Below, piece after piece: positions 2,221-13,205 of a DNA stretch of 48,606 nucleotides. The translations under genes and the position numbers were made by a program. Location: positions 1-48,606 of the forward strand of contig DAIDDL010000030.1 of the NCBI GenBank assembly GCA_027309085.1, written 5' to 3'. The first letter of the stretch is position 1; the number at the start of each line of letters is the position of its first letter. Source of the stretch: Sulfobacillus sp. GTDB taxonomy: Bacteria; Bacillota; Sulfobacillia; Sulfobacillales; Sulfobacillaceae. The notes under the pieces are model-generated. The model had not been told where the DNA came from. It made no database searches and was given only the letters and a program-made list of their open reading frames with translations.

Positions 2221-4458
2221 CTATCGATCACTTTCTTGTACAGCTCCTAACGGCTTTGCGCCAAAATGCATGAGCACTCTGACCAGCTCTCGTGTCGCCT
2301 CTCGTGGATGAAATTGCAAGACTGTCTCGCGAGCCAGTGCTCTCTTGGAATCTACGAGGTCGCGACGGGTTGCACATAGCTTCAGGAGTTCGACCAAGTG
2401 ACCCTCACTGGGTCTAGCCCATTTGTGCCCTCGAAATGACGGTAAAAAATAGTTCGGTGGTATCTCTTGGAGGCTGGGAACATCAATGAGAAAGGAATTC
2501 TGAGAATTGAGCCATTCTACTGACGGGCCCCAATTTGGAACAATTGCAGGCACGCCGCAGGCCATGGCTTCAAAAATTGGCCGTCCCCATCCTTCTCCTC
2601 GGGTCGGGAGCACGAATACATCGCCTAATCTATAAAAATTCAGCAATTGGTGTATAGTCCAACGCTCATTTATCACAGTAACTTGCGCACAATGCTTACG
2701 GGATTTTCCTATATGGTTCAGAGTCGTTTCAATATCTCCATCGGGGTTCGTGTCCGATGCGCCAATCGTTGTCGTCTTGATAACCAGGCGCACTGGATCC
2801 CCAGCATGGAAAGCCTTGGCCCACGCTTTGATTAATATATCCCAACCCTTCCGGTAACTCCAGTCAAAGACGCTAACAAAATTGTAAATTTCATGCTGTA
2901 CGGAAGGGCCGGGTTGGTACCAGTCGGTGTCAACCGTTCCCGGTACCATAAAAAGTTTGTTAGGATTGACTCCTGCATCAGTAAAAGTTTTGACATTAAA
3001 TGAGGAAGCCACCATAACACCGTCCATATCGTTCAAACGAGGCACCCAATCAGAAGGGAGACGGTCCGTCTCAAAGAAGGTCCGTGCTAGATCTACTCCC
3101 TTTGAACGCCTAAATGCCATTGGGACTGGGCCGCTGTGGACTGCAATAGCATCTCGTGGCACCGCAATTCTCTCAAGTCGTCTGATCAGCATTTCTTCTT
3201 TTTCGGTAACAGCAGATGCGTCTTCCCCACTATGGTCTTCAACGACAGGGACCAGCCCGTATTGCGGCAAGGCTTTGATAAAATCGCGATTCTCCGACGC
3301 ATAACCTGAGGCGTTTCTGATAGGGCCGTGCCATTCAACAATATGTCGTGCAGGTGAAGAGAATACGCGAGGGCGGGGGTAATCCGATTCTTCTCTGAAC
3401 AAATTCTCCCAATGCTGCGTAATGGTTGGCCAGCCATAGTTCTGATGGACGTGTTCGACACTCTTGGCCATCATTTCCTGCCTTTCTCCGTCACTCATGT
3501 TTAGCCCTGTGAGCAGGGATTGTTTCAGACTTTCAATGTCTGGTTCGAAACCCCAGCCCTGTTTTCGTGAATACTCTACCGGGAAGTATTTTCGCTTGCC
3601 CGCAATACGAAGCCCCATGTTCGGCAAGAGAAATTCATTTGTTGGATTGGTATCACTAGCAACTACTAACGCCCCGCACGCCATAGCTTCAAGTACCGGC
3701 AGATTGAATCCCTCTGCGCGATACGGCGATATTACTAGACTGGCCCGCCTATATAACGCCGCCATTTCCAGCTCCGACAAGTCATTATCAAGAACAATGA
3801 CATGTGGTGTTCCGGCTTTCCGCAGGAATTCCTGAAGAATCAGAGGAATGGTCTTGTCTACGTAGACCGTGTCCCTTCCCACCGTCTTCACCACGAGGGT
3901 AATGTCATCATCCGTTTTGGCGATCATGGCGTACGCAGCTAAAAGGAGGTCCAACCCTTTGCGTGGGATGAGTCCTCCTACCCACAGCAAAACCCGGGAA
4001 CGCGCTCCAAATATTTCCATTCGCGGTCCCCATGGGTGATAAATTGACAAATCAACCCCTAAAGGGATAGCGACTATTTTTTCGTTATTTACCCCACTTT
4101 CACGATACATTTCTACTTCAGCCTGCGAATTAACAACCAACTTATACACATCGCGCTCAATCGCATAAGTCCATACGTCCGGCACTACTCCCGCTTCCCA
4201 AGGTTGCATAAGAATGAGGGGACCTGCACGGTCTCCAAAAAGGGGAGGCCATGAATGACGAACGTGCCAATCAGCCATCTCAGATCCAGTCAGTTGGGTC
4301 ATCAATGCCGAGTTTCCGTCGAAGCTGGCCGTGGGTCTAGGAGTGCGAGTTAAGATTTTTACTTCGTAGCCTTTCATCATTAGATGTCTGGTCAATTCCC
4401 GATTGACTTTATCCAGACTCAAGGGTCGAAAAAAAGGCCCCTCCCACAATAAGCGCAT
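2221..4458 (-). CDS. Bifunctional glycosyltransferase, two GT4 (GT-B) modules
   Basis: About 745 residues, twice the usual GT4 size. The first half ends with the signature EGFNLPVLEAMACG and the second with GEGWGRPIFEAMACG. Each supplies the E-x7-E pair that binds the nucleotide-sugar, so two complete GT4 catalytic modules sit in tandem. ATG at 4458 is chosen over an in-frame TTG two codons earlier because GGGAGTG lies just upstream. It follows the GT2-TPR gene by 15 bases and precedes the methyltransferase by 36, so the three are probably co-transcribed behind fliD/fliS. The inferred role is sequential addition of two sugars to a cell-surface or flagellar acceptor. There are no membrane segments or signal peptide, so it should act in the cytosol. 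Confidence 0.82.
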   Translation of the reverse strand: MRLLWEGPFFRPLSLDKVNRELTRHLMMKGYEVKILTRTPRPTASFDGNSALMTQLTGSEMADWHVRHSWPPLFGDRAGPLILMQPWEAGVVPDVWTYAIERDVYKLVVNSQAEVEMYRESGVNNEKIVAIPLGVDLSIYHPWGPRMEIFGARSRVLLWVGGLIPRKGLDLLLAAYAMIAKTDDDITLVVKTVGRDTVYVDKTIPLILQEFLRKAGTPHVIVLDNDLSELEMAALYRRASLVISPYRAEGFNLPVLEAMACGALVVASDTNPTNEFLLPNMGLRIAGKRKYFPVEYSRKQGWGFEPDIESLKQSLLTGLNMSDGERQEMMAKSVEHVHQNYGWPTITQHWENLFREESDYPRPRVFSSPARHIVEWHGPIRNASGYASENRDFIKALPQYGLVPVVEDHSGEDASAVTEKEEMLIRRLERIAVPRDAIAVHSGPVPMAFRRSKGVDLARTFFETDRLPSDWVPRLNDMDGVMVASSFNVKTFTDAGVNPNKLFMVPGTVDTDWYQPGPSVQHEIYNFVSVFDWSYRKGWDILIKAWAKAFHAGDPVRLVIKTTTIGASDTNPDGDIETTLNHIGKSRKHCAQVTVINERWTIHQLLNFYRLGDVFVLPTRGEGWGRPIFEAMACGVPAIVPNWGPSVEWLNSQNSFLIDVPSLQEIPPNYFLPSFRGHKWARPSEGHLVELLKLCATRRDLVDSKRALARETVLQFHPREATRELVRVLMHFGAKPLGAVQESDR

Positions 4459-4473
4459 GACCAAACACTCCCA

Positions 4474-5712
4474 TTAATTTGAGGTAGATAGGGATTCTAA
4501 AAGAAAATCGAGAAGTTTTTGTTCCGCACTATTTCTGACAGACATTGAATTTAAATGCCCAATCAGGGCTTCCCGTGTCATGACCAGCATCAAATGCTCA
4601 GCCACAGTTGATACCGAAAAATTACCCATTAATGCAAGGTATTCGGACCACGCAGGATAAAAGGCTGATTTCGCTTGAATAGTTTTAAGGTAATATGCCT
4701 CCGCCAGTTTCACTTGATTTCTCATTCTAGAAACTCGAGCCAGTTGCCATAACGGCTTAAACGTCGCAACCCCCAACTCCGACTGCAAGTAATTTTTGGG
4801 AACGCCCGTGCGCAGAGCTTTTTGAAAGCATTCCTCAGCCCGGTCCCAATCTTTCTCAGCCATATACACCATGCCTTCCCAGTAGACAAAATCGGTGTAG
4901 TCAGGAAACAGCAGCAGGCCTTCACGAATGGTTTGATGGATCTTGCGGAAATCCTTTTTTACCGTGTAGACTTTGGCCAGGGTCAGCCAAAATAGGGGCT
5001 GCAGCGCAGCCGTGGGATGCGTCAAGGATATGGCCTGTTTCATGTCCTTAACAGCTTCATCCAGCCGCTGCAAGGCCATCAGAGTCTGGGCTCTCTGCCA
5101 GTACATATAGGCTTTCCATTCACTGGTTCCCGGCTCTTTGATGCTCTGGTCCAACAACTCCAGATTTCGCTGCAGCTTGCCACGGTCCGCCATGACCTCA
5201 TTGAGATAGCCGTAATGCATCAGGCGCACATCCAAAGGTCCGAGGGTCATCCCCGCCCGGCCTATGGCCGGGATAATCTGCTCGTGAATTCGGCCTTCCC
5301 AGCGCACCCGCGAGTCATTGCGAAACAGCCTCGTGACACGTGCTTCAGAGAGATCTTCCGCCCTATCCGTGAGTGACACGATGCGGATATTGTAAGCATC
5401 AGCCGTGGGACGGCTTACCCCGTCCAACAGATTCGGTATGTCGTCGCCCAGGAGCACTTCATCGGCGTCCAGCATCAGGGTCCATGGTGTTTTCACTTCA
5501 TCCAGAGCCCAATTGCGGGCCTTGGCGAAATTTTTGGGCCAAGGCCGCGAGATAACGCGTGCCCCTTCTTGTTCCGCCAGGGCCACCGTCTGGTCGTCAC
5601 TCCCCGTATCTATCACGACAATATCGTCTGCCACATCTTTGACAGACTGCAGGCACTGCCGGATAAAGCGCTCTTCATTGCGTGCAATCATGGCTACGGT
5701 GATTCCCGTCAT
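4474..5712 (-). CDS. Family 2 glycosyltransferase with TPR-like C-terminus
   Basis: 412 residues. Residues 4-90 are a GT-A fold: ITVAMIARNEE at the N-terminus, VVIDTGSDD near residue 35 and the metal-binding DADE at 82-85. Residues from about 190 onward are helical repeats of TPR type (for example WDRAEECFQKAL), as in bacterial protein glycosyltransferases that act on a polypeptide. The start at 5712 makes an ATGA overlap with the stop of the fliS-like gene, implying translational coupling; an ATG three codons earlier is also possible. Together with the position behind fliD and fliS this points to a flagellin glycosyltransferase. That role is inferred; the fold assignment is firm. Confidence 0.82.
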   Translation of the reverse strand: MTGITVAMIARNEERFIRQCLQSVKDVADDIVVIDTGSDDQTVALAEQEGARVISRPWPKNFAKARNWALDEVKTPWTLMLDADEVLLGDDIPNLLDGVSRPTADAYNIRIVSLTDRAEDLSEARVTRLFRNDSRVRWEGRIHEQIIPAIGRAGMTLGPLDVRLMHYGYLNEVMADRGKLQRNLELLDQSIKEPGTSEWKAYMYWQRAQTLMALQRLDEAVKDMKQAISLTHPTAALQPLFWLTLAKVYTVKKDFRKIHQTIREGLLLFPDYTDFVYWEGMVYMAEKDWDRAEECFQKALRTGVPKNYLQSELGVATFKPLWQLARVSRMRNQVKLAEAYYLKTIQAKSAFYPAWSEYLALMGNFSVSTVAEHLMLVMTREALIGHLNSMSVRNSAEQKLLDFLLESLSTSN

Positions 5713-6113
5713 CCGGACCATCCCAGTACGGCAGTCTCTTGCGCGGCTGGTTGCTTCAGCCTGTAATCGAGCTGGTGAATCAGCTCGGTTACCGTCTCCG
5801 TCAGATCTGTTAGAGACTCCATGTGGTGTTTGCGCATCACGTCATTCAGCATTTGCCACATCGCCCTGTGAGCGGTCTTGAAAGCCATCCCTTCTTTGGT
5901 CTCCGTATTGGCGTTGTCGTGCAGGGCACTGACGATGAGCTGCGCATGGCTTCCCAAATTTACCAGTTGATCCCAGCGCTGTGCCTTTAAAGCCGATTCC
6001 ATCCCCAGAAGATCCCGGTACACCGCCCGGTATAATTCCCGGCCCAGATAATCAGGATTGTTCGACAGAACTTGGCTCTGATGATAGGCGTTCACAGATG
6101 CTTGCATATCCAT
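5709..6113 (-). CDS. fliS: FliS-like flagellin export chaperone
   Basis: About 134 residues and mostly helical, with the FliS-type opening (ASVNAYHQSQVL) that resembles the AYQQNQV region of FliS, then helices rich in alternating hydrophobic and charged residues. FliS binds the C-terminus of newly made flagellin and holds it unfolded for the type III export gate. Sequence identity to classical FliS is modest, and the assignment leans on length, the N-terminal motif and the position directly after fliD. The start is uncertain. A strong AAGGAGG lies 11 bases before the ATG at 6113, while a GTG at 6140 overlaps the fliD stop and an ATG at 6107 is also usable. Unlike flagellin and FliD, this cytosolic protein has normal Arg/Lys content. 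Confidence 0.6.
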   Translation of the reverse strand: MDMQASVNAYHQSQVLSNNPDYLGRELYRAVYRDLLGMESALKAQRWDQLVNLGSHAQLIVSALHDNANTETKEGMAFKTAHRAMWQMLNDVMRKHHMESLTDLTETVTELIHQLDYRLKQPAAQETAVLGWSG

Positions 6114-6139
6114 CCTCAGCATATCCTCCTTGATCCCCA

Positions 6140-7591
6140 CTACGCCAACGTGCCATTCTGACTGAGCTGCTGGGTGTAATTGGTAAACGAATTTTCTGTT
6201 TCGGCCATAGCGCTCAGCGTCGACACGAACGAATCATACTGGGTTTGAGCAGCCGCAATGGCCTGTTGAATCTGCGACTGCACCAGCGCTGTCTGTCCGT
6301 TGGCCTGACTCTCCTCGTTGCTGTCATTGGAAATCGCCGTTTCCGTGACGCTGCCAGAGCCCGTCCCGCTAAACCCGCTCAGGCTTTGGACAATGCCCGG
6401 TGGCGACCCTGTGAGCTGTTGGAAAAACGACTGCACACCCGACAGATTTGTCTGGAGGGCCGTGGTCAACGCCGCGGTATTCACTGAAAAAGTTGCCGTG
6501 TTGGCGTCGTAAGTAATACCCAGAGATCCTAGCGATAAGCCTTGGCTGTCTTGAAACCCCGCCAGTTGCTGGGTGACCTGGTTCAATTCGTCCATGGGCA
6601 CAAGGGAATGGATCACTTGGTTGGCATTTGTCTGGTAGGATCCGGAAGTACTCGTGGAAGCCGAGGAGTTCGCCGCCTGTTGGGTGGCGTAAGCCAGATT
6701 CCACGTGTCTTTCACCCATGTATTGAAATTGCTGAAAAGCGACTGAATGCTTTGGGCGTCTTGGCTATAGTTCGCCGATACGGTAACGTCGGTTGACCCA
6801 GTCGACGCCAACTGAACTGTCACGTCGGGAATCAGGTTGGTAAAGAGGTTGCTCGAACTTTGCACCGTAGTCCCTTGGTACTGCACTGCCGCGGCCGCCG
6901 GGGCTTGTACGGTATTGACCGTATAGCCCGACGCCGTGCTGGTCAGAATCCCCACGCTGGCCAGAGCCGCGCTGCCTCCTGTGTAGCTGATGGCCTGGTC
7001 CGTGTTGGTCCCATAAATCTTGAGATAGTAGTCGCTGCCGGATTGTGCGGCCTGAGCATCGACAGGTGCCCCGCTCGCATTAATGGCCGTCACCAATTCG
7101 TCTAGCGTTGTACTCGCATTGACCGCCACCGCCACGGACACGCTTCCCACCGAGAAGGCCACGGTCGCTGAGGCTAGGCCCAAGGCGGCATCGGAATTGG
7201 TAATGGCCATGGCCGTAGACGCGAATCCGTCGATCTCTGGAGTAGCCAACTGCGTTACGTCCAGGGAATAAGTGCCTTGCGGCGCATTGCCGTCTGCGGC
7301 CGCCGTTGCCACATTGCTATTTGAGGTGTTTGCCTCCATAGCTTGAAGCGCGGTACTGGATCCTAACGACTGCAGCCCCGAAAGAAAGGACCCTGCATCT
7401 CCTTGCAGCGTAGTCCATGCGGCACTGTTATTTTGAAGTGTCGTGAGCTGCTGCTGAAGGGTGTTCAACTGTTCCGTAAGGGGCTCAATCGCCGTGCTCT
7501 CCATACCGGTTAAAGAAAGATCGGACAGCATTTGCGCCGCCACATTGTTCGTCCCATAAATCGCAGTCCAGTTGACCGCAATGCCGGACAT
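6140..7591 (-). CDS. fliD: Flagellar cap protein FliD (hook-associated protein 2)
   Basis: 483 residues. The N-terminal coiled region with repeated Leu/Gln heptads, a Ser/Thr/Ala-rich middle and the C-terminal helical region ending in NSFTNYTQQLSQNGTLA fit FliD, the pentameric cap that folds flagellin at the filament tip. It is secreted through the flagellar export apparatus, so there is no Sec signal. The ATG at 7591 is chosen because it shares a base with the TAA of the leader ORF (TAATG), with GGGGAG upstream. The sequence contains no arginine and only two lysines, which is exceptional for its length and shared with flagellin. It heads the operon with the fliS-like gene, two glycosyltransferases and a methyltransferase. 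Confidence 0.85.
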   Translation of the reverse strand: MSGIAVNWTAIYGTNNVAAQMLSDLSLTGMESTAIEPLTEQLNTLQQQLTTLQNNSAAWTTLQGDAGSFLSGLQSLGSSTALQAMEANTSNSNVATAAADGNAPQGTYSLDVTQLATPEIDGFASTAMAITNSDAALGLASATVAFSVGSVSVAVAVNASTTLDELVTAINASGAPVDAQAAQSGSDYYLKIYGTNTDQAISYTGGSAALASVGILTSTASGYTVNTVQAPAAAAVQYQGTTVQSSSNLFTNLIPDVTVQLASTGSTDVTVSANYSQDAQSIQSLFSNFNTWVKDTWNLAYATQQAANSSASTSTSGSYQTNANQVIHSLVPMDELNQVTQQLAGFQDSQGLSLGSLGITYDANTATFSVNTAALTTALQTNLSGVQSFFQQLTGSPPGIVQSLSGFSGTGSGSVTETAISNDSNEESQANGQTALVQSQIQQAIAAAQTQYDSFVSTLSAMAETENSFTNYTQQLSQNGTLA

Positions 7592-7653
7592 TAGACGAAC
7601 TCCCCAAAAGCGCAACAGCCGAAAGACCTATTCAGCGCACACCTAACATTCAT
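7591..7653 (-). CDS. 20-codon leader ORF coupled to fliD
   Basis: An ATG at 7653 sits 8 bases after a near-ideal AAGGAGG and opens a frame encoding MNVRCALNRSFGCCAFGEFV, ending in TAA that overlaps the fliD ATG as TAATG. It is the best ribosome binding site in the fliD 5' region, so ribosomes probably enter here and re-initiate on fliD. The peptide holds three cysteines and three basic or near-basic positions, and resembles no family I know. It could be only a coupling device, or a regulatory leader peptide. Too little sequence to judge conservation. Confidence 0.5.
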   Translation of the reverse strand: MNVRCALNRSFGCCAFGEFV

Positions 7654-7681
7654 TACATATTCCTCCTTGAATTTAACCTCC

Positions 7682-7695
7682 CCCGATCCATCGGG
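7682..7695. promoter_or_regulatory. Short palindrome in the fliD 5' untranslated region
   Basis: CCCGAT-CC-ATCGGG is a perfect 6-bp palindrome lying between the proposed fliD promoter and the leader ORF. It could be an operator half-site pair or a small RNA hairpin. No regulator can be named from the sequence. Confidence 0.3.
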
Positions 7696-7727
7696 AGATA
7701 CCGAACGCGAGACTAATTTGTAACCCT

Positions 7728-7756
7728 AGTGTACATGCCCTGGAAGCTGGAAACAA
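7728..7756 (-). promoter_or_regulatory. Promoter for leader-fliD operon
   Basis: On the minus strand TTGTTT (7756-7751) and TACACT (7733-7728) are separated by 17 bases, a sigma-A-like arrangement. The transcript would start about 70 bases before the leader ORF. I found no sigma-28-like flagellar promoter in this gap. Confidence 0.45.
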
Positions 7757-7786
7757 AACTTTTGTGCCCTAATTCGCTGCAAGAAT

Positions 7787-7815
7787 TTGTTTTTCTTCCT
7801 ATGTGGGCTTATATT
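7787..7815 (+). promoter_or_regulatory. Promoter for flagellin gene
   Basis: TTGTTT (7787-7792), 17-base spacer, TATATT (7810-7815). It carries the same -35 hexamer as the divergent fliD promoter and would give a leader of roughly 80 bases before the flagellin ATG. Sigma-28 boxes were not seen. Confidence 0.5.
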
Positions 7816-7899
7816 GAAAGTGGAATTTACGAATTCCAGTGTCAGTGCGACCAGGTTTCGAAGGATCGGAACCTTTGCCAACTCAAGGAGGAAAAATCG

Positions 7900-9087
7900 A
7901 TGATTATCAACACAAACGTCTCGGCATTGTTTGCAGAGAATGCCGTCAACACAACAACCAATTCCCTATCCAATCTTGAACAGGAAATGTCAACCGGATA
8001 TCAAATCAATTCGCCTGGCAACAACCCCGCAGGGCTTGCCATCTCCACATTGATGAGCGGCGAGCTGGGCGGCATTAATGCCAGCGTCAATAACGCCAAT
8101 CAGGCATTGAATTTGCTGGATACTGCCAACGGCGGCATACAAAACGATGTGCAGATTGTCACCCAGGTTCAGCAATTGGCCACCCAGGCTTCGAACAGCA
8201 CGGAAACCACACAGGACCAGCAGGACCTGCAAAATCAAATCCACAAACTTTTAAACCAGCTGGACAACAACGCGAACTCTGTCAATTACAACAACCAAAC
8301 TCTATTGAATGGCAATTTCGGAGCCACCTTAAACGGCGCTTCATCAACGACGTTAGGTGTAACGGTTACCCTCGGTGCGGACAGCGGCAATGCCTCGGGC
8401 TCCTATTCGGTATCTATTCAGTACAACAGCGCCAGCAACGACGCGGTGGTGACGCTGTTTACGTCGACAGCTGCTGGCGCTAACACCACTGTTGGAACCG
8501 CCACAGTGGCCAACATTACCACTGCATCCTCAACTGCGACGGCCACCGCCCAATTTGTGCTAGGCACCGCCAACGACCTCAACAGCACCGGCAGCAACGC
8601 CTCATTTGTGGTAAATTTCACTCCGGCGTCCTCTGCAACTACATCTTCTCTGAGTTTTTCTGTGGCTGCGGCCGCCAATCCTTTAAGCTTCCAGGTAGGT
8701 CCAAACGACCAGCCAGCCGATCAAGTGACTACCAATCTGGGGAGTTTCACCAGCCTCAGCTTGGGATTATCAAACATCAACGTAGTCGGCAGCCAAAATG
8801 GCACCCAAAACGCATCATACGGCATTACCCTGGCCAACAATGCGCTGTCTATGCTGACCAATGCCCAAGGCCAGATCGGCGCACAGCAAGACCAGTTGAA
8901 TTACACGATAGAAAACCTCAATACAGAGAATACGAACCTACAGGCCGCGCAGTCCACAATTATGGATGCGAACATGGCGCAGGTGACCAGCAGCTTCGCC
9001 AAAGAGCAGATTCTCCAGCAGACGGGACTGCAAGCTCTGTCCTCAGCCAATTCCCTGCCGGGAATGGTGCTGAAAATCCTCGGCTAA
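7900..9087 (+). CDS. hag: Flagellin
   Basis: 395 residues. The N-terminus MIINTNVSALFAENAVN and the C-terminal helix ending SANSLPGMVLKILG are the conserved D0/D1 ends of bacterial flagellin; residues about 145-270 form a Ser/Thr/Asn/Ala-rich variable domain with almost no charge. The ATG at 7900 is preceded by AAGGAGGA 7 bases away; upstream in-frame starts lack a binding site. There is no arginine at all, only three lysines and one histidine. Positions that are Arg or Lys in ordinary flagellins (for example the LSSGLRIN and QNRLE segments) are replaced by polar residues (MSTGYQIN, QDQLN). This fits a filament working in strong acid. The Ser/Thr-rich middle is a likely target of the glycosyltransferases in the divergent operon. 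Confidence 0.93.
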   Translation: MIINTNVSALFAENAVNTTTNSLSNLEQEMSTGYQINSPGNNPAGLAISTLMSGELGGINASVNNANQALNLLDTANGGIQNDVQIVTQVQQLATQASNSTETTQDQQDLQNQIHKLLNQLDNNANSVNYNNQTLLNGNFGATLNGASSTTLGVTVTLGADSGNASGSYSVSIQYNSASNDAVVTLFTSTAAGANTTVGTATVANITTASSTATATAQFVLGTANDLNSTGSNASFVVNFTPASSATTSSLSFSVAAAANPLSFQVGPNDQPADQVTTNLGSFTSLSLGLSNINVVGSQNGTQNASYGITLANNALSMLTNAQGQIGAQQDQLNYTIENLNTENTNLQAAQSTIMDANMAQVTSSFAKEQILQQTGLQALSSANSLPGMVLKILG

Positions 9088-9137: not shown

Positions 9138-9980
9138 TCAGAAGATCGGAGCGAAATCCCGTCCCGCCTCCATGCGGTACTCCGGGCAGGCTGTCACCAG
9201 TCCGCCCTTTAAAGGCCTCGCCGCGTCCAGATGAAAAGAGTCAGTGGTTGCAGGGTCGACCTGCGCAGGCGAGAAGCCAAACGCCGTGGCAATTCTGACG
9301 GTCAGGTCGTAGCGCGTCAGGCGCTCGGGACCCACCACATGCAAGATTCCCTCAAAATCATCGGCTACGGCTTGCCATGCGATTTTGCCCAACCCCTCAC
9401 TAGGCGTCGGCGTATTCCACTGGTCCGTGACAGCTTTCACCGTGTTCCCGCTTTGTAATTGCTGGACGACGCGGTAGACAAAATTGCGGGGATTCTCATC
9501 CCGGCTATAAATCCATGCGGGACGGATTATCAAAGCCCTAGGAATAGTATCCAGCAAAAACTGTTCCGTCTCCACCTTGTGGCGGCCGTAAACCTGCACC
9601 GCATTCACCCGGTCTGCTTCGGAATAAGGGCCATTCGTGCCGTCAAACACATAATCCGTGGAAAAAAACACCACTTTTGCATGGCGCTCAGCGGCCATTG
9701 TGGCCACCAGCTCTGGCGCTTCAACATTGAGGCGCCAGCTCAATTCTGGCTCCCGCTCGCAGCGGTCCACGTCCGGCATTGCGGCCGGAATCCACACCAC
9801 ATCAGGCTGTTCCTCGGCGAGCAGCGCGGATACCCTATCCGCATCTCCCATATCCAATGGGCGCAGGCCAGGGACGGAATGCGTCAAACAGGTGCCCTGC
9901 ACCTGTTCCCCCCGTGAAACCAATTCCTGCAGCAGATACCCGCCGACCTGCCCGGATGCCCCGACGATCACATGCTTCAT
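9138..9980 (-). CDS. rmlD: dTDP-4-dehydrorhamnose reductase-like SDR (RmlD family)
   Basis: 280 residues. GASGQVGG at residues 8-15 is the Rossmann NAD(P)-binding glycine motif, FFSTDYVFDG near residue 105 is characteristic of RmlD, and YGRHK near 130 supplies the catalytic Tyr and Lys. The family reduces dTDP-4-keto-L-rhamnose to dTDP-L-rhamnose, a donor for surface polysaccharides. The other rml genes are not in the window, so a related nucleotide-sugar reductase cannot be excluded. The gene stands alone, convergent with flagellin across a shared terminator. Rhamnose could feed either the glycan operon at 14.6-23.2 kb or filament glycosylation. Confidence 0.78.
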   Translation of the reverse strand: MKHVIVGASGQVGGYLLQELVSRGEQVQGTCLTHSVPGLRPLDMGDADRVSALLAEEQPDVVWIPAAMPDVDRCEREPELSWRLNVEAPELVATMAAERHAKVVFFSTDYVFDGTNGPYSEADRVNAVQVYGRHKVETEQFLLDTIPRALIIRPAWIYSRDENPRNFVYRVVQQLQSGNTVKAVTDQWNTPTPSEGLGKIAWQAVADDFEGILHVVGPERLTRYDLTVRIATAFGFSPAQVDPATTDSFHLDAARPLKGGLVTACPEYRMEAGRDFAPIF

Positions 9981-10406: not shown

Positions 10407-11345
10407 CTATAGTTTGCCAGCCTGCTTCTTCTGTATGTACACCAGGATGCCCTGCGCGTCCAGCATAATATCCAGGGCCAGCGGGTCCGCGTTTTTGACT
10501 GGGTGGCCTTGGCGCCTTGCGTCCTGAATGACAATCTGCGAGAGCGCCTGCTGAATCATCGGGTAATCAGGATTCTCAGGCAACTGATCGATCAAGGCGC
10601 GAATATACTGCACGCCACGCCGGGAAAAGTCAAATGCCACGGCAGCCGGCTTGGTCTCCCCGAAATGGGTGTGAAAAATCCTTGAAGGCTGCAGCTGCTC
10701 CATCCGGTCCATGGAGGCCAGCATCGTGTCTGGGTCAAAATCAACCGGAGAGGTTGTCGGAAACCCATAGACAAAATCCCACCCCGTGTATTCGGGCCAG
10801 TAGCGGATGCCCACCATGTCTCCGCTGAAAAGGCCAGTGCTGACGCTGTCATAAATGCACATGTGATGCTTGGCATGCCCTGGCGTATGGTAAAAAGACA
10901 GAGTATGCCGGCCAATCGTCAGATGGCTCCCGTCGTCCTCCGCCACCACCCTCTCCGCCTCAATGGGCATCAGAGGCCCAAACATTTCGTCTGCGTGCTC
11001 TCCGTAGACGGCACGGGTTCCTGATATCAGCCGCGAAGGGTCGACCAGGTGCCGGGCCGCGCGGGGATGGGCATGCATGACCGCTTTGGGACTGGCCTGC
11101 ATCATCTGACCCGCTCCGCCGGAATGGTCGAGGTGCACATGGGTTAACAGGATGTGATCCAAATCCTCTGGCTTCACGTCCAATTCGCCAAGACCTCTCA
11201 GCAATGCTTCGTGGCTATTGGCTGATCCCGTCTCGATCAGCGCCAGCTGCTCGTCTTTGATGAGATAGGCGCTCGAGCGGAAGGGCTTGCCCTCTTCGTA
11301 CAAATCAATTGCATAGATTCCCGATCCATAATCGATAACCGCCAT
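10407..11345 (-). CDS. MBL-fold metallo-hydrolase
   Basis: 312 residues. HVHLDH at residues 69-74 is the metallo-beta-lactamase HxHxDH zinc motif, followed by a metal-site Asp region (LFSGDMVG) and later His residues (HTHFGE). These belong to the glyoxalase II/YtnP-like branch of the superfamily, cytosolic by the absence of a signal peptide. ATG at 11345 is chosen because GGGGAGGG lies 7 bases upstream; the ATG two codons earlier is too close to that site. Substrate cannot be inferred: hydrolysis of a thioester or lactone is typical. The pair with the NifX-like gene may form a two-gene operon. Confidence 0.75.
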   Translation of the reverse strand: MAVIDYGSGIYAIDLYEEGKPFRSSAYLIKDEQLALIETGSANSHEALLRGLGELDVKPEDLDHILLTHVHLDHSGGAGQMMQASPKAVMHAHPRAARHLVDPSRLISGTRAVYGEHADEMFGPLMPIEAERVVAEDDGSHLTIGRHTLSFYHTPGHAKHHMCIYDSVSTGLFSGDMVGIRYWPEYTGWDFVYGFPTTSPVDFDPDTMLASMDRMEQLQPSRIFHTHFGETKPAAVAFDFSRRGVQYIRALIDQLPENPDYPMIQQALSQIVIQDARRQGHPVKNADPLALDIMLDAQGILVYIQKKQAGKL

Positions 11346-11393
11346 TGCCATCCCTCCCCCTTCTATTCTCTCCCGCGCGGCTGCATCTGGCAA

Positions 11394-11882
11394 TCGCTGT
11401 GCATTGACGTTTCCAATCCACCATTCGAAATTTAAATGGGCGCCCGGGGAGGTCCTCAGTTTTCAACCGTGGTCAAAGTTGAATAGCCTCTTGATCCTTT
11501 CCTGAGGATTACCGTCCCAACCCGCGGCGTGCATAGCCGTTTGGAGAACTGCCGCGACTCTGTCGGTCAGGCAAAGAAGTTCAGTTCGAGGGACGGGCGG
11601 CGCCCGGGTGCAGAGCTGTGGTCTAGCCGTGTCACGAAGCACGGACCCCGGGAGAGCCGTGGTATTTCCGCCTGGGTTCCACCGGAACGCCATGGGTCGC
11701 TTGACCGAACCATCCTCCCGACTTTCGGAGAAACCGAGCGGGGATGACAGCGCTTCTTCCAACATTTGGGCACCGCAATTGTCACTTTGTACCATCTTGA
11801 TGCTACAGAGCTGGTTTCTGATGCCCCGCCTTGTATCCCAGGGCCATTCCCCATATACTCAAAGAGAAAGAAAGAGGTGCCT
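11394..11882. other. Gap without a convincing gene
   Basis: About 490 bases between the MBL gene and the Rpn-type gene. Several short frames exist on both strands (the longest on the minus strand at 11463-11795), but none resembles a known family or has a good ribosome binding site. It may be degraded sequence accompanying the mobile Rpn gene. Confidence 0.4.
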
Positions 11883-12731
11883 ATGGTGGATCAAGATACG
11901 TTGATGAAAGCGCTCACCCAGTCGTTATCCGGCGGGGCTTTAGAAGCGGTCGGAGTCCACGGGGTCGAACTCACGGAGCCGGTGCCGACCGAGTTGCCGG
12001 CCACGACCATGCGGATGGACGCGGCCTGGCGGATGGCCGACGGGCGCATCTTTCATCTCGAATTTCAGAGTACGCGCGCACCGAACTTGTATCGCTTTTT
12101 AGAATATGATGTCCGCTTGGCCCAGCACCATACGACGCAGATTCGCACGGTCGTGTTGTATCATGCCGACACGGCGCGCGCGCCCGACGCCCTCGATATT
12201 GGCACAGCGCAGTATCACGTCGAAAATGTCTTCCTATCCCACATGGATGGCACGCAGGCGCTCGCCACGGTTCAGGCGCATCTCGCGGCCGGGCGCTGGG
12301 AACCGCCCGATCGGTTGCGATTGGCGCTCGCGCTGAACATGCACTTTCCTCACCGCGCAGATGTGCTGGACACGGTGCTGACGTTGGTGTCCGCCGTCCC
12401 CAGCATGGCCGAACGTGACCTCGTGGTCAGCGCGATGATCATTCTCGGAGACTATGCCCTAACGGGTGCCGAGCGCACCCGTTTACGAAAGGAGTTGCGC
12501 AAAATGTCCACGATTGCAGAGGAATTGCTACGGGACGAACACGAAGAAGGCCTTAAGGAGGGCCGTGAAAAAGGTCGGCAAGAAGGTCGGCAAGAAGGTC
12601 GGCAAGAAGGTCGGCAAGAAGCACAGCGTCTGATGGCGAAAGCTCTGCTGGCGGAGGGCGACAGCGTGGAAAAAGTCATGACTATCACGGGATTGACTCA
12701 CGCAGAAGTGGAAGCGTTGAGAGCACGCTAA
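11883..12731 (+). CDS. Rpn-family (PD-(D/E)XK) recombination-promoting nuclease
   Basis: 282 residues. Residues about 41-65 contain an Asp then FHLEFQS, the D...ExQ pattern of the PD-(D/E)XK nuclease core in Rpn/YhgA-type proteins. The middle is helical, and the C-terminus carries a highly charged run with repeated GRQE followed by a helical tail (SVEKVMTITGLTHAEVEALRAR) typical of these multicopy proteins. Rpn proteins promote RecA-independent DNA transfer and some act in phage defence. The start ATG follows GAGGTG; GTG/ATG starts further upstream lack homology. Its neighbours are unrelated, in line with mobility. Four perfect 12-bp units inside the gene encode the GRQE run. Confidence 0.75.
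   Translation: MVDQDTLMKALTQSLSGGALEAVGVHGVELTEPVPTELPATTMRMDAAWRMADGRIFHLEFQSTRAPNLYRFLEYDVRLAQHHTTQIRTVVLYHADTARAPDALDIGTAQYHVENVFLSHMDGTQALATVQAHLAAGRWEPPDRLRLALALNMHFPHRADVLDTVLTLVSAVPSMAERDLVVSAMIILGDYALTGAERTRLRKELRKMSTIAEELLRDEHEEGLKEGREKGRQEGRQEGRQEGRQEAQRLMAKALLAEGDSVEKVMTITGLTHAEVEALRAR
12573..12620 (+). repeat. Four perfect 12-bp tandem repeats within the Rpn-type gene
   Basis: Unit GGTCGGCAAGAA occurs four times without interruption and encodes GRQE each time. The unit length keeps the frame whatever the copy number, so the charged linker can change in length by slippage. It is not a CRISPR array: there are no spacers. Confidence 0.95.
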
Positions 12732-12965
12732 GCGGAAGGAGCGCGATCACCTCGCGGCAGAGGTCCACGCGATATGGCGCTCAGGCTCTTCTCATAGGGC
12801 ACCCACAGCTTCCGCATCGCGGCGGAGGCCGTGGATCCGACCCGTCCCGGGGAATTCGCCATCGGCGGTATCCCGCCTGCCATCGGCCCCGTATGTCGAT
12901 CCACCGTATAGGGAAACTGTGCCCCACCCCCGAACCTTCCCCACGGTATTCGAATCCGCACCAGG

Positions 12966-13205
12966 CTAGACCGCTTTGATAGATAGGCTGTGGAGACAGT
13001 CATGGCAGAGAGTTTGGCCCCGAAAGGTTTCCGTATTTTCCTCATGGTCGCAGAAAATGCAGGGCGGCCGAAGCGGGGCTCTGCCGTCCCAGATCATCCA
13101 CTCTGCGGATAAACCTAGGGCACGGTTCATGTTCCTCAGGATGTGTTGCGCGACAAATGGGAAGACCTGTGCCCACGGATCTTTCCCATTCCCTATTGGC
13201 GCCAA
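12966..13205 (-). CDS. Small protein with C-terminal zinc ribbon, possibly truncated
   Basis: 79 residues from a TTG start. The C-terminus reads CIFCDHEENTETFRGQTLC followed by HDC, a CxxC...CxxC zinc ribbon like the tails of some AbrB/SpoVT-type regulators in Clostridia. The N-terminal half is helical and has no AbrB swapped-hairpin domain, so either the DNA-binding part has been lost in the 13206-13341 gap or this is a different small family. The ribosome binding site is weak (GAGG). It lies downstream of the TPR regulator on the same strand. Coding status is uncertain; the paired cysteines are the main support. The 12732-12965 stretch after it holds nothing I can assign. Confidence 0.35.
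   Translation of the reverse strand: MAPIGNGKDPWAQVFPFVAQHILRNMNRALGLSAEWMIWDGRAPLRPPCIFCDHEENTETFRGQTLCHDCLHSLSIKAV

Follow-up and report, generated by a model that had tools for sequence, protein, structure and literature searches.

Loss of basic residues from the distal flagellar proteins of Sulfobacillus and its probable relation to life in acid

The window analysed here, a 48,606-nucleotide stretch of DNA from a Sulfobacillus sp. that represents one whole contig of a 4.49-Mb assembly (99% complete), encodes an ordinary set of flagellin, filament cap protein and chaperone in which the distal flagellar proteins are stripped of basic residues; assembly of these proteins into a filament is inferred. 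Very probably, working in acid at around pH 2 is what led the distal proteins to lose these residues. Strong acid dismantles ordinary flagella, and still flagellar genes are present in bacteria that live near pH 2.

Results

Flagellin gene cluster

The following genes make up the flagellin cluster and its surroundings.

2221-4464 and 9138-9980, both minus strand: group 1 glycosyltransferase / RmlD-like reductase genes, flanking the flagellin cluster
4474..5721, minus strand: family 2 glycosyltransferase with TPR repeats (Pfam), kept beside fliS-fliD-fliC
5709..6140, minus strand: FliS-like export chaperone, 143 aa; PF02561 just below cut-off; adjoins fliD in relatives
6140..7591, minus strand: FliD, the cap protein of the filament, 483 aa; above the cut-offs of Pfam PF02465 and PF07195
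7900..9087, plus strand: flagellin (FliC), 395 aa; Pfam PF00669 and PF00700 over cut-off; flagellin fold in the model

Flagellin scored 89.2 bits against Flagellin_N (PF00669, cut-off 26.6) and 59.4 bits against Flagellin_C (PF00700, cut-off 23), and FliD scored 53.8 bits against FliD_N (cut-off 24.8) and 51.8 bits against FliD_C (cut-off 25.4). The FliS-like ORF reached 25.0 bits against PF02561 (E 2.5e-5, cut-off 26.7), and its place beside fliD is conserved. The AlphaFold2 model of flagellin was of moderate quality (pLDDT 74.9, pTM 0.69, with the first 43 residues low). It predicted a helical D0/D1 core with an inserted variable domain, like that of solved filaments, and a Foldseek search with it returned a Stenotrophomonas flagellum at E 1.2e-12, the remaining PDB matches all being flagellins. 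The nearest named relative was Sulfobacillus thermotolerans Kr1, which is placed in the same genus and whose flagellin is 79% identical.

The family 2 glycosyltransferase gene at 4474-5721 was found near fliC in 17 of the 18 related loci examined. Since this gene stays beside fliC-fliD-fliS, it is a possible flagellin glycosyltransferase, which is an inference, and the filament may be glycosylated.

Basic residues in flagellin and FliD

Starts of flagellin (MIINTN) and FliD (MSGIAVN) were picked by homology, as relatives begin at the same points; the longest open frames begin farther upstream and include additional basic residues. Flagellin contained no Arg, three Lys (K116, K368 and K392) and one His (H115), along with 12 Asp and 8 Glu, and FliD contained no Arg, two Lys (K191 and K294) and one His (H328). 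These Arg, Lys and His counts had been given in a first-pass annotation of the window and were exact when recounted from the translations. The same annotation had noted that the FliS-like chaperone encoded beside the depleted pair is normal in this respect, and indeed 8 Arg, 6 Lys and 7 His were present in its 143 residues, providing an internal control. Codon or G+C bias, which it had excluded, is ruled out by the normal composition of the adjoining genes; the G+C content was 52% in the flagellin gene and 58% in the window.

The depletion of flagellin and FliD is not due to chance. At a rate of 10.5%, which is the mean Arg+Lys content of sampled non-membrane ORFs of this genome (an approximate value, derived with a simple longest-ORF caller), the chance of three or fewer Arg+Lys in 395 residues is 1.6e-15 and that of two or fewer in 483 residues is 9e-21; at a rate of 5%, the corresponding values are 2.7e-6 and 6e-9. 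ORFs were sampled from this genome and from S. thermotolerans with rough rules for calling genes and signal peptides, and included 8 and 10 predicted secreted proteins; the lowest Arg+Lys values in these samples belonged mostly to flagellar axial proteins. Smaller predicted secreted proteins were only mildly depleted. In addition, two large proteins of 984 and 663 aa in S. thermotolerans (locus L277, 113-3061 on the minus strand and 11210-13201 on the plus strand) contained 1.7% and 2.4% Arg+Lys; both begin with a signal-like stretch and carry Ig-like or TIG domains.

Residues lost, kept and gained

We aligned 21 Sulfobacillaceae flagellins with 37 ordinary flagellins of the class. Eighteen columns had a basic residue in 80% or more of the ordinary flagellins. 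In these columns, basic residues filled 634 of 666 cells in ordinary flagellins versus 7 of 378 in Sulfobacillaceae, whose residues there are chiefly Gln, Asn, Ser, Thr and Leu. The lost basic sites sit in the conserved helical core and not in the variable domain alone. In 18 acidic columns, acidic residues filled 642 of 666 cells in ordinary flagellins versus 56 of 378 in Sulfobacillaceae, mainly Asn and Gln now being present; basic-residue loss was much stronger than acidic-residue loss. Six acidic residues (E55, D83, D109, D161, D331 and E343) were gained in Sulfobacillaceae. The loss of Arg from the LRIN and QNRLE segments, which had been proposed from the window alone, was borne out: the former reads YQIN (Arg35 to Gln) and the latter QDQLN (Arg332 to Gln). 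Tyr had also been listed as a replacement for Arg, but it takes the place of Leu.

Lys392, located four residues from the C-terminus (window about 9073-9075), was the sole basic residue found in all 21 Sulfobacillaceae flagellins; most ordinary flagellins of the class have Gln at this position.

Eleven flagellins of other acid lineages retained 55 of 198 basic and 71 of 198 acidic cells, and usually kept Arg91, Arg107 and Arg332. Retained cells differ between lineages, which implies that the paths differed and the outcome was similar.

Comparison within the family and the class

In 26 Sulfobacillaceae genomes, flagellins cut back to the homologous start contained 0.3-2.2% Arg+Lys, and no flagellin with a normal content was found among them, so that the depletion runs through the family. 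The same-class flagellins of Symbiobacterium and Thermaerobacter contained 9.5% and 7.8%, respectively; we take these two genomes to be those of Symbiobacterium thermophilum and Thermaerobacter marianensis. With both taken as neutrophiles, neither outcome that had been named as refuting the acid interpretation, a normal flagellin within the clade or the same lack in neutrophile relatives, was encountered, and the interpretation is supported. Low contents (about 1-4%) were also seen in the order's other families and in some further families of the class, and most remaining members of the class had 4-11%. As a yardstick, values for 30 flagellins from one phylum-wide draw had a median of 7.7% and went no lower than 5.4%; this draw was biased to ordinary flagellins because loci came best match first. 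For 28 flagellin-family proteins drawn from Acidobacteriota, the median was 6.5% and the lowest value 1.7%.

Gradient along the flagellum

The depletion had been described for flagellin and FliD only, a scope that proved too narrow. In this genome, Arg+Lys content was 1.0% in FlgL, 1.4% in FlgE, 2.0% in FliE and 2.3% in FlgK, 3.3-5.7% in the rod proteins FlgB, FlgC, FlgF and FlgG, 4.7% in FlgD (start uncertain), and near normal in FliF (7.4%) and FlhA (10.3%; assigned by homology only). A gradient was also present in S. thermotolerans and S. acidophilus, in both of which FlgD contained 0.7%. Axial proteins of the two same-class genomes, Symbiobacterium and Thermaerobacter, had 5.7-15%. The depletion grows outwards: it is least on the cytoplasmic side, greater in the rod and strongest in the hook, junction, cap and filament. 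Comparison with hook and rod, which had been suggested along with the original observation, placed the hook among the depleted structures and the rod in between: hook, hook-filament junction and hook-scaffold proteins are also basic-poor, and conserved acidic sites are lost too.

Recurrence in other lineages

Low Arg+Lys contents were also detected in flagellins of MAGs labelled Proteobacteria or Gammaproteobacteria (1.2-2.1%), Silvibacterium bohemicum (1.5%), Granulicella tundricola (2.2%) and Eremiobacterota MAGs (2.6-3.9%), and in all five genomes of the order of an Acidihalobacter MAG (3.0-3.3%). In Granulicella, flagellin, FliD, FlgK and FlgL had 1.8-2.7% versus 10-11% in FliS, MotA, MotB and FlgM, and in Silvibacterium and Acidihalobacter, FlgD and FlgE had 0.5-2.1% versus 5-9% in rod proteins. 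Because the same depletion occurs in Acidobacteriaceae and Acidihalobacter, with the same gradient where tested, it looks like a convergent acid adaptation of the distal flagellum. Acidophily of most relatives, many of them MAGs, was inferred from record names; Silvibacterium, Granulicella and Acidihalobacter were classed as acid-dwelling on their general growth pH.

Depletion confined to surface-exposed flagellar proteins of acidophiles had been named as support for the idea. Independent acid-dwelling lineages do show the depletion, but flagellins with few basic residues also occur in a few bacteria that are not known as acidophiles. Flagellins of Allgaiera indica (loci L199 and L216) and other Paracoccaceae (L196 and L198) contained 2.0-2.8% Arg+Lys, and those of Paraburkholderia plasmids 1.8-3.3%. 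Neither these Paracoccaceae, A. indica included, nor Paraburkholderia are known as acidophiles. Plasmid searches for flagellins of named acidophiles yielded a clear case only for Granulicella, plus Paraburkholderia.

Several further observations were made in these genomes. The Allgaiera genome additionally has flagellin-like genes at 6-7% Arg+Lys. On a 93-kb plasmid of Paraburkholderia dioscoreae (L238), a flagellin with 1.8% (4796-5773; the annotated N-terminus may be short) and a FliD with 1.7% (5920-7740) adjoin an iscB gene and an IS110 transposase. Flagellin of Desulfotomaculum copahuensis (L208, 1474-2352) has the reverse imbalance, with 8.2% Arg+Lys and only 5.1% Asp+Glu.

Discussion

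Acid and the charge of the filament

Calculated with textbook pKa values, the charge of the window flagellin is about +5 at pH 1.8 and about -17 at pH 7, and the charges of Symbiobacterium and Thermaerobacter flagellins at pH 1.8 are +29 and +42. If carboxylates are protonated at pH 1.8, each Arg or Lys would add a positive charge that has no partner and recurs in every subunit along the polymer. Their removal would cut the charge per subunit from +29 to +42, as in the two relatives, to about +3 to +5, and the lowered charge could avoid repulsion and hence the acid disassembly of ordinary flagella. Strong acid has traditionally been used to depolymerise flagella (PMC6637544), and S. acidophilus grows at pH 1.6-2.3 (PMC3558970). 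Given this effect of strong acid and the low charge calculated here, loss of basic residues should remove the repulsion that breaks filaments; a filament stabilised in this way at pH 2 is an inference made without stability data.

Some observations fit this explanation poorly. Acidihalobacter also lives near pH 2. Its flagellin has 3% Arg+Lys and keeps several conserved Arg, which counts against an acid explanation. In addition, S. acidophilus NAL is recorded as non-motile and flagella were not seen (PMC3558970), so that use of the flagellum in this strain is uncertain.

An extension of the acid explanation, in which flagellin acts as a pH switch that assembles only in acid and stays apart in the cytosol, is unproven and seems to us rather doubtful, if still conceivable. 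A charge of about -17 in the cytosol (pH 7) would hold subunits apart, and outside at pH 1.8, with carboxyls protonated, the almost neutral subunit would assemble; the gained and conserved residues E55, D83, D109, D161, D331 and E343 could make carboxyl contacts that hold only when protonated. If such a switch exists, neutral pH would dissolve these filaments, whereas ordinary flagella behave in the opposite way.

Export, metals and proteases

It could be argued that type III flagellar export, and not the outside medium, demands fewer charges, which would ease crossing against a steep proton gradient. Every flagellar protein in which strong depletion was found is an export substrate. However, FlgM is an export substrate as well and keeps 10.1% Arg+Lys in Granulicella; rod proteins, which take the same route, are far less depleted in Silvibacterium and Acidihalobacter; and depletion extends to the large S. 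thermotolerans proteins whose N-termini are signal-like. Four Sulfobacillaceae genomes carry, at the place of fliK, an ORF with 12-14% Arg+Lys that points the same way, although its identity is unproven: gene order, a C-terminal end in common and a weak match to a profile are the grounds for it, and a Pfam search gave no match even at E 1. The depletion seems compatible with export, considering FlgM and this FliK-like ORF (about 12%), and export is probably not its cause; we regard the idea as very unlikely.

Slightly less credible still is that the loss guards against metal or sulfate loads in mine waters and not against protons. Many low-charge relatives appear, from record names only, to come from acid mine drainage, and potentially metal-binding acidic residues were also lost. 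However, the basic loss exceeds the acidic loss by far, and Silvibacterium and Granulicella, which are not known as mine organisms, are depleted as well.

Finally, the least plausible proposal is that Arg and Lys, the trypsin sites, were removed as a defence against trypsin-like proteases, or that base composition or glycosylation brought about their loss as a by-product, unrelated to pH: Ser and Thr make up 23.5% of flagellin and a glycosyltransferase lies beside the cluster, but proteases leave the simultaneous loss of conserved Asp and Glu unexplained, neighbours of the 52% G+C flagellin gene in the 58% G+C window are normal, and lost sites reach into the conserved core and not merely the variable domain.

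Relation to known proteins

Adaptation of the distal flagellum to acid, which we favour, can be compared with two known systems. Bacterial FliC/Hag (PF00669/PF00700) and FliD (PF02465/PF07195) have the same domains, length range and predicted fold as the window proteins. They differ in composition: Arg+Lys is below 1% in the window proteins against the median of 7.7% in the phylum-wide draw, and the window flagellin has lost the 18 most conserved basic columns as well as most of the conserved acidic ones. In the acid-stable alpha-amylase of Alicyclobacillus acidocaldarius, positive residues are fewer, the reason given being that unpaired positive charges repel one another when the pH is low (PMC6172347); the window proteins likewise have reduced positive residues. 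Flagellin and FliD contain fewer basic residues than neutrophilic homologues, as in acid-adapted extracellular proteins, and their acid stability is inferred. The amylase has 6.4% H+R+K and keeps acidic residues at 10.5% (PMC6172347), whereas the window flagellin is a self-assembling polymer with less than 1% Arg+Lys and reduced acidic residues too. A maltose-binding protein with a positive surface is an exception to the rule (PMC6172347). The principle of reduced positive charge is therefore already known from acid-stable amylases; its extent in a polymer and the whole distal flagellum is undescribed in the literature found. No earlier description of a charge-depleted flagellum was found in the literature searched, whose coverage lacked most subscription journals.

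If confirmed, these observations would represent a residue-by-residue rebuilding of a long protein polymer for acid, with natural replicates in several phyla, and could guide the design of acid-stable protein filaments. Basic-residue content might also serve as a sequence marker of outside acidity for uncultured bacteria. For the flagellin family itself, confirmation would mean that the conserved charged residues are dispensable for the family fold.
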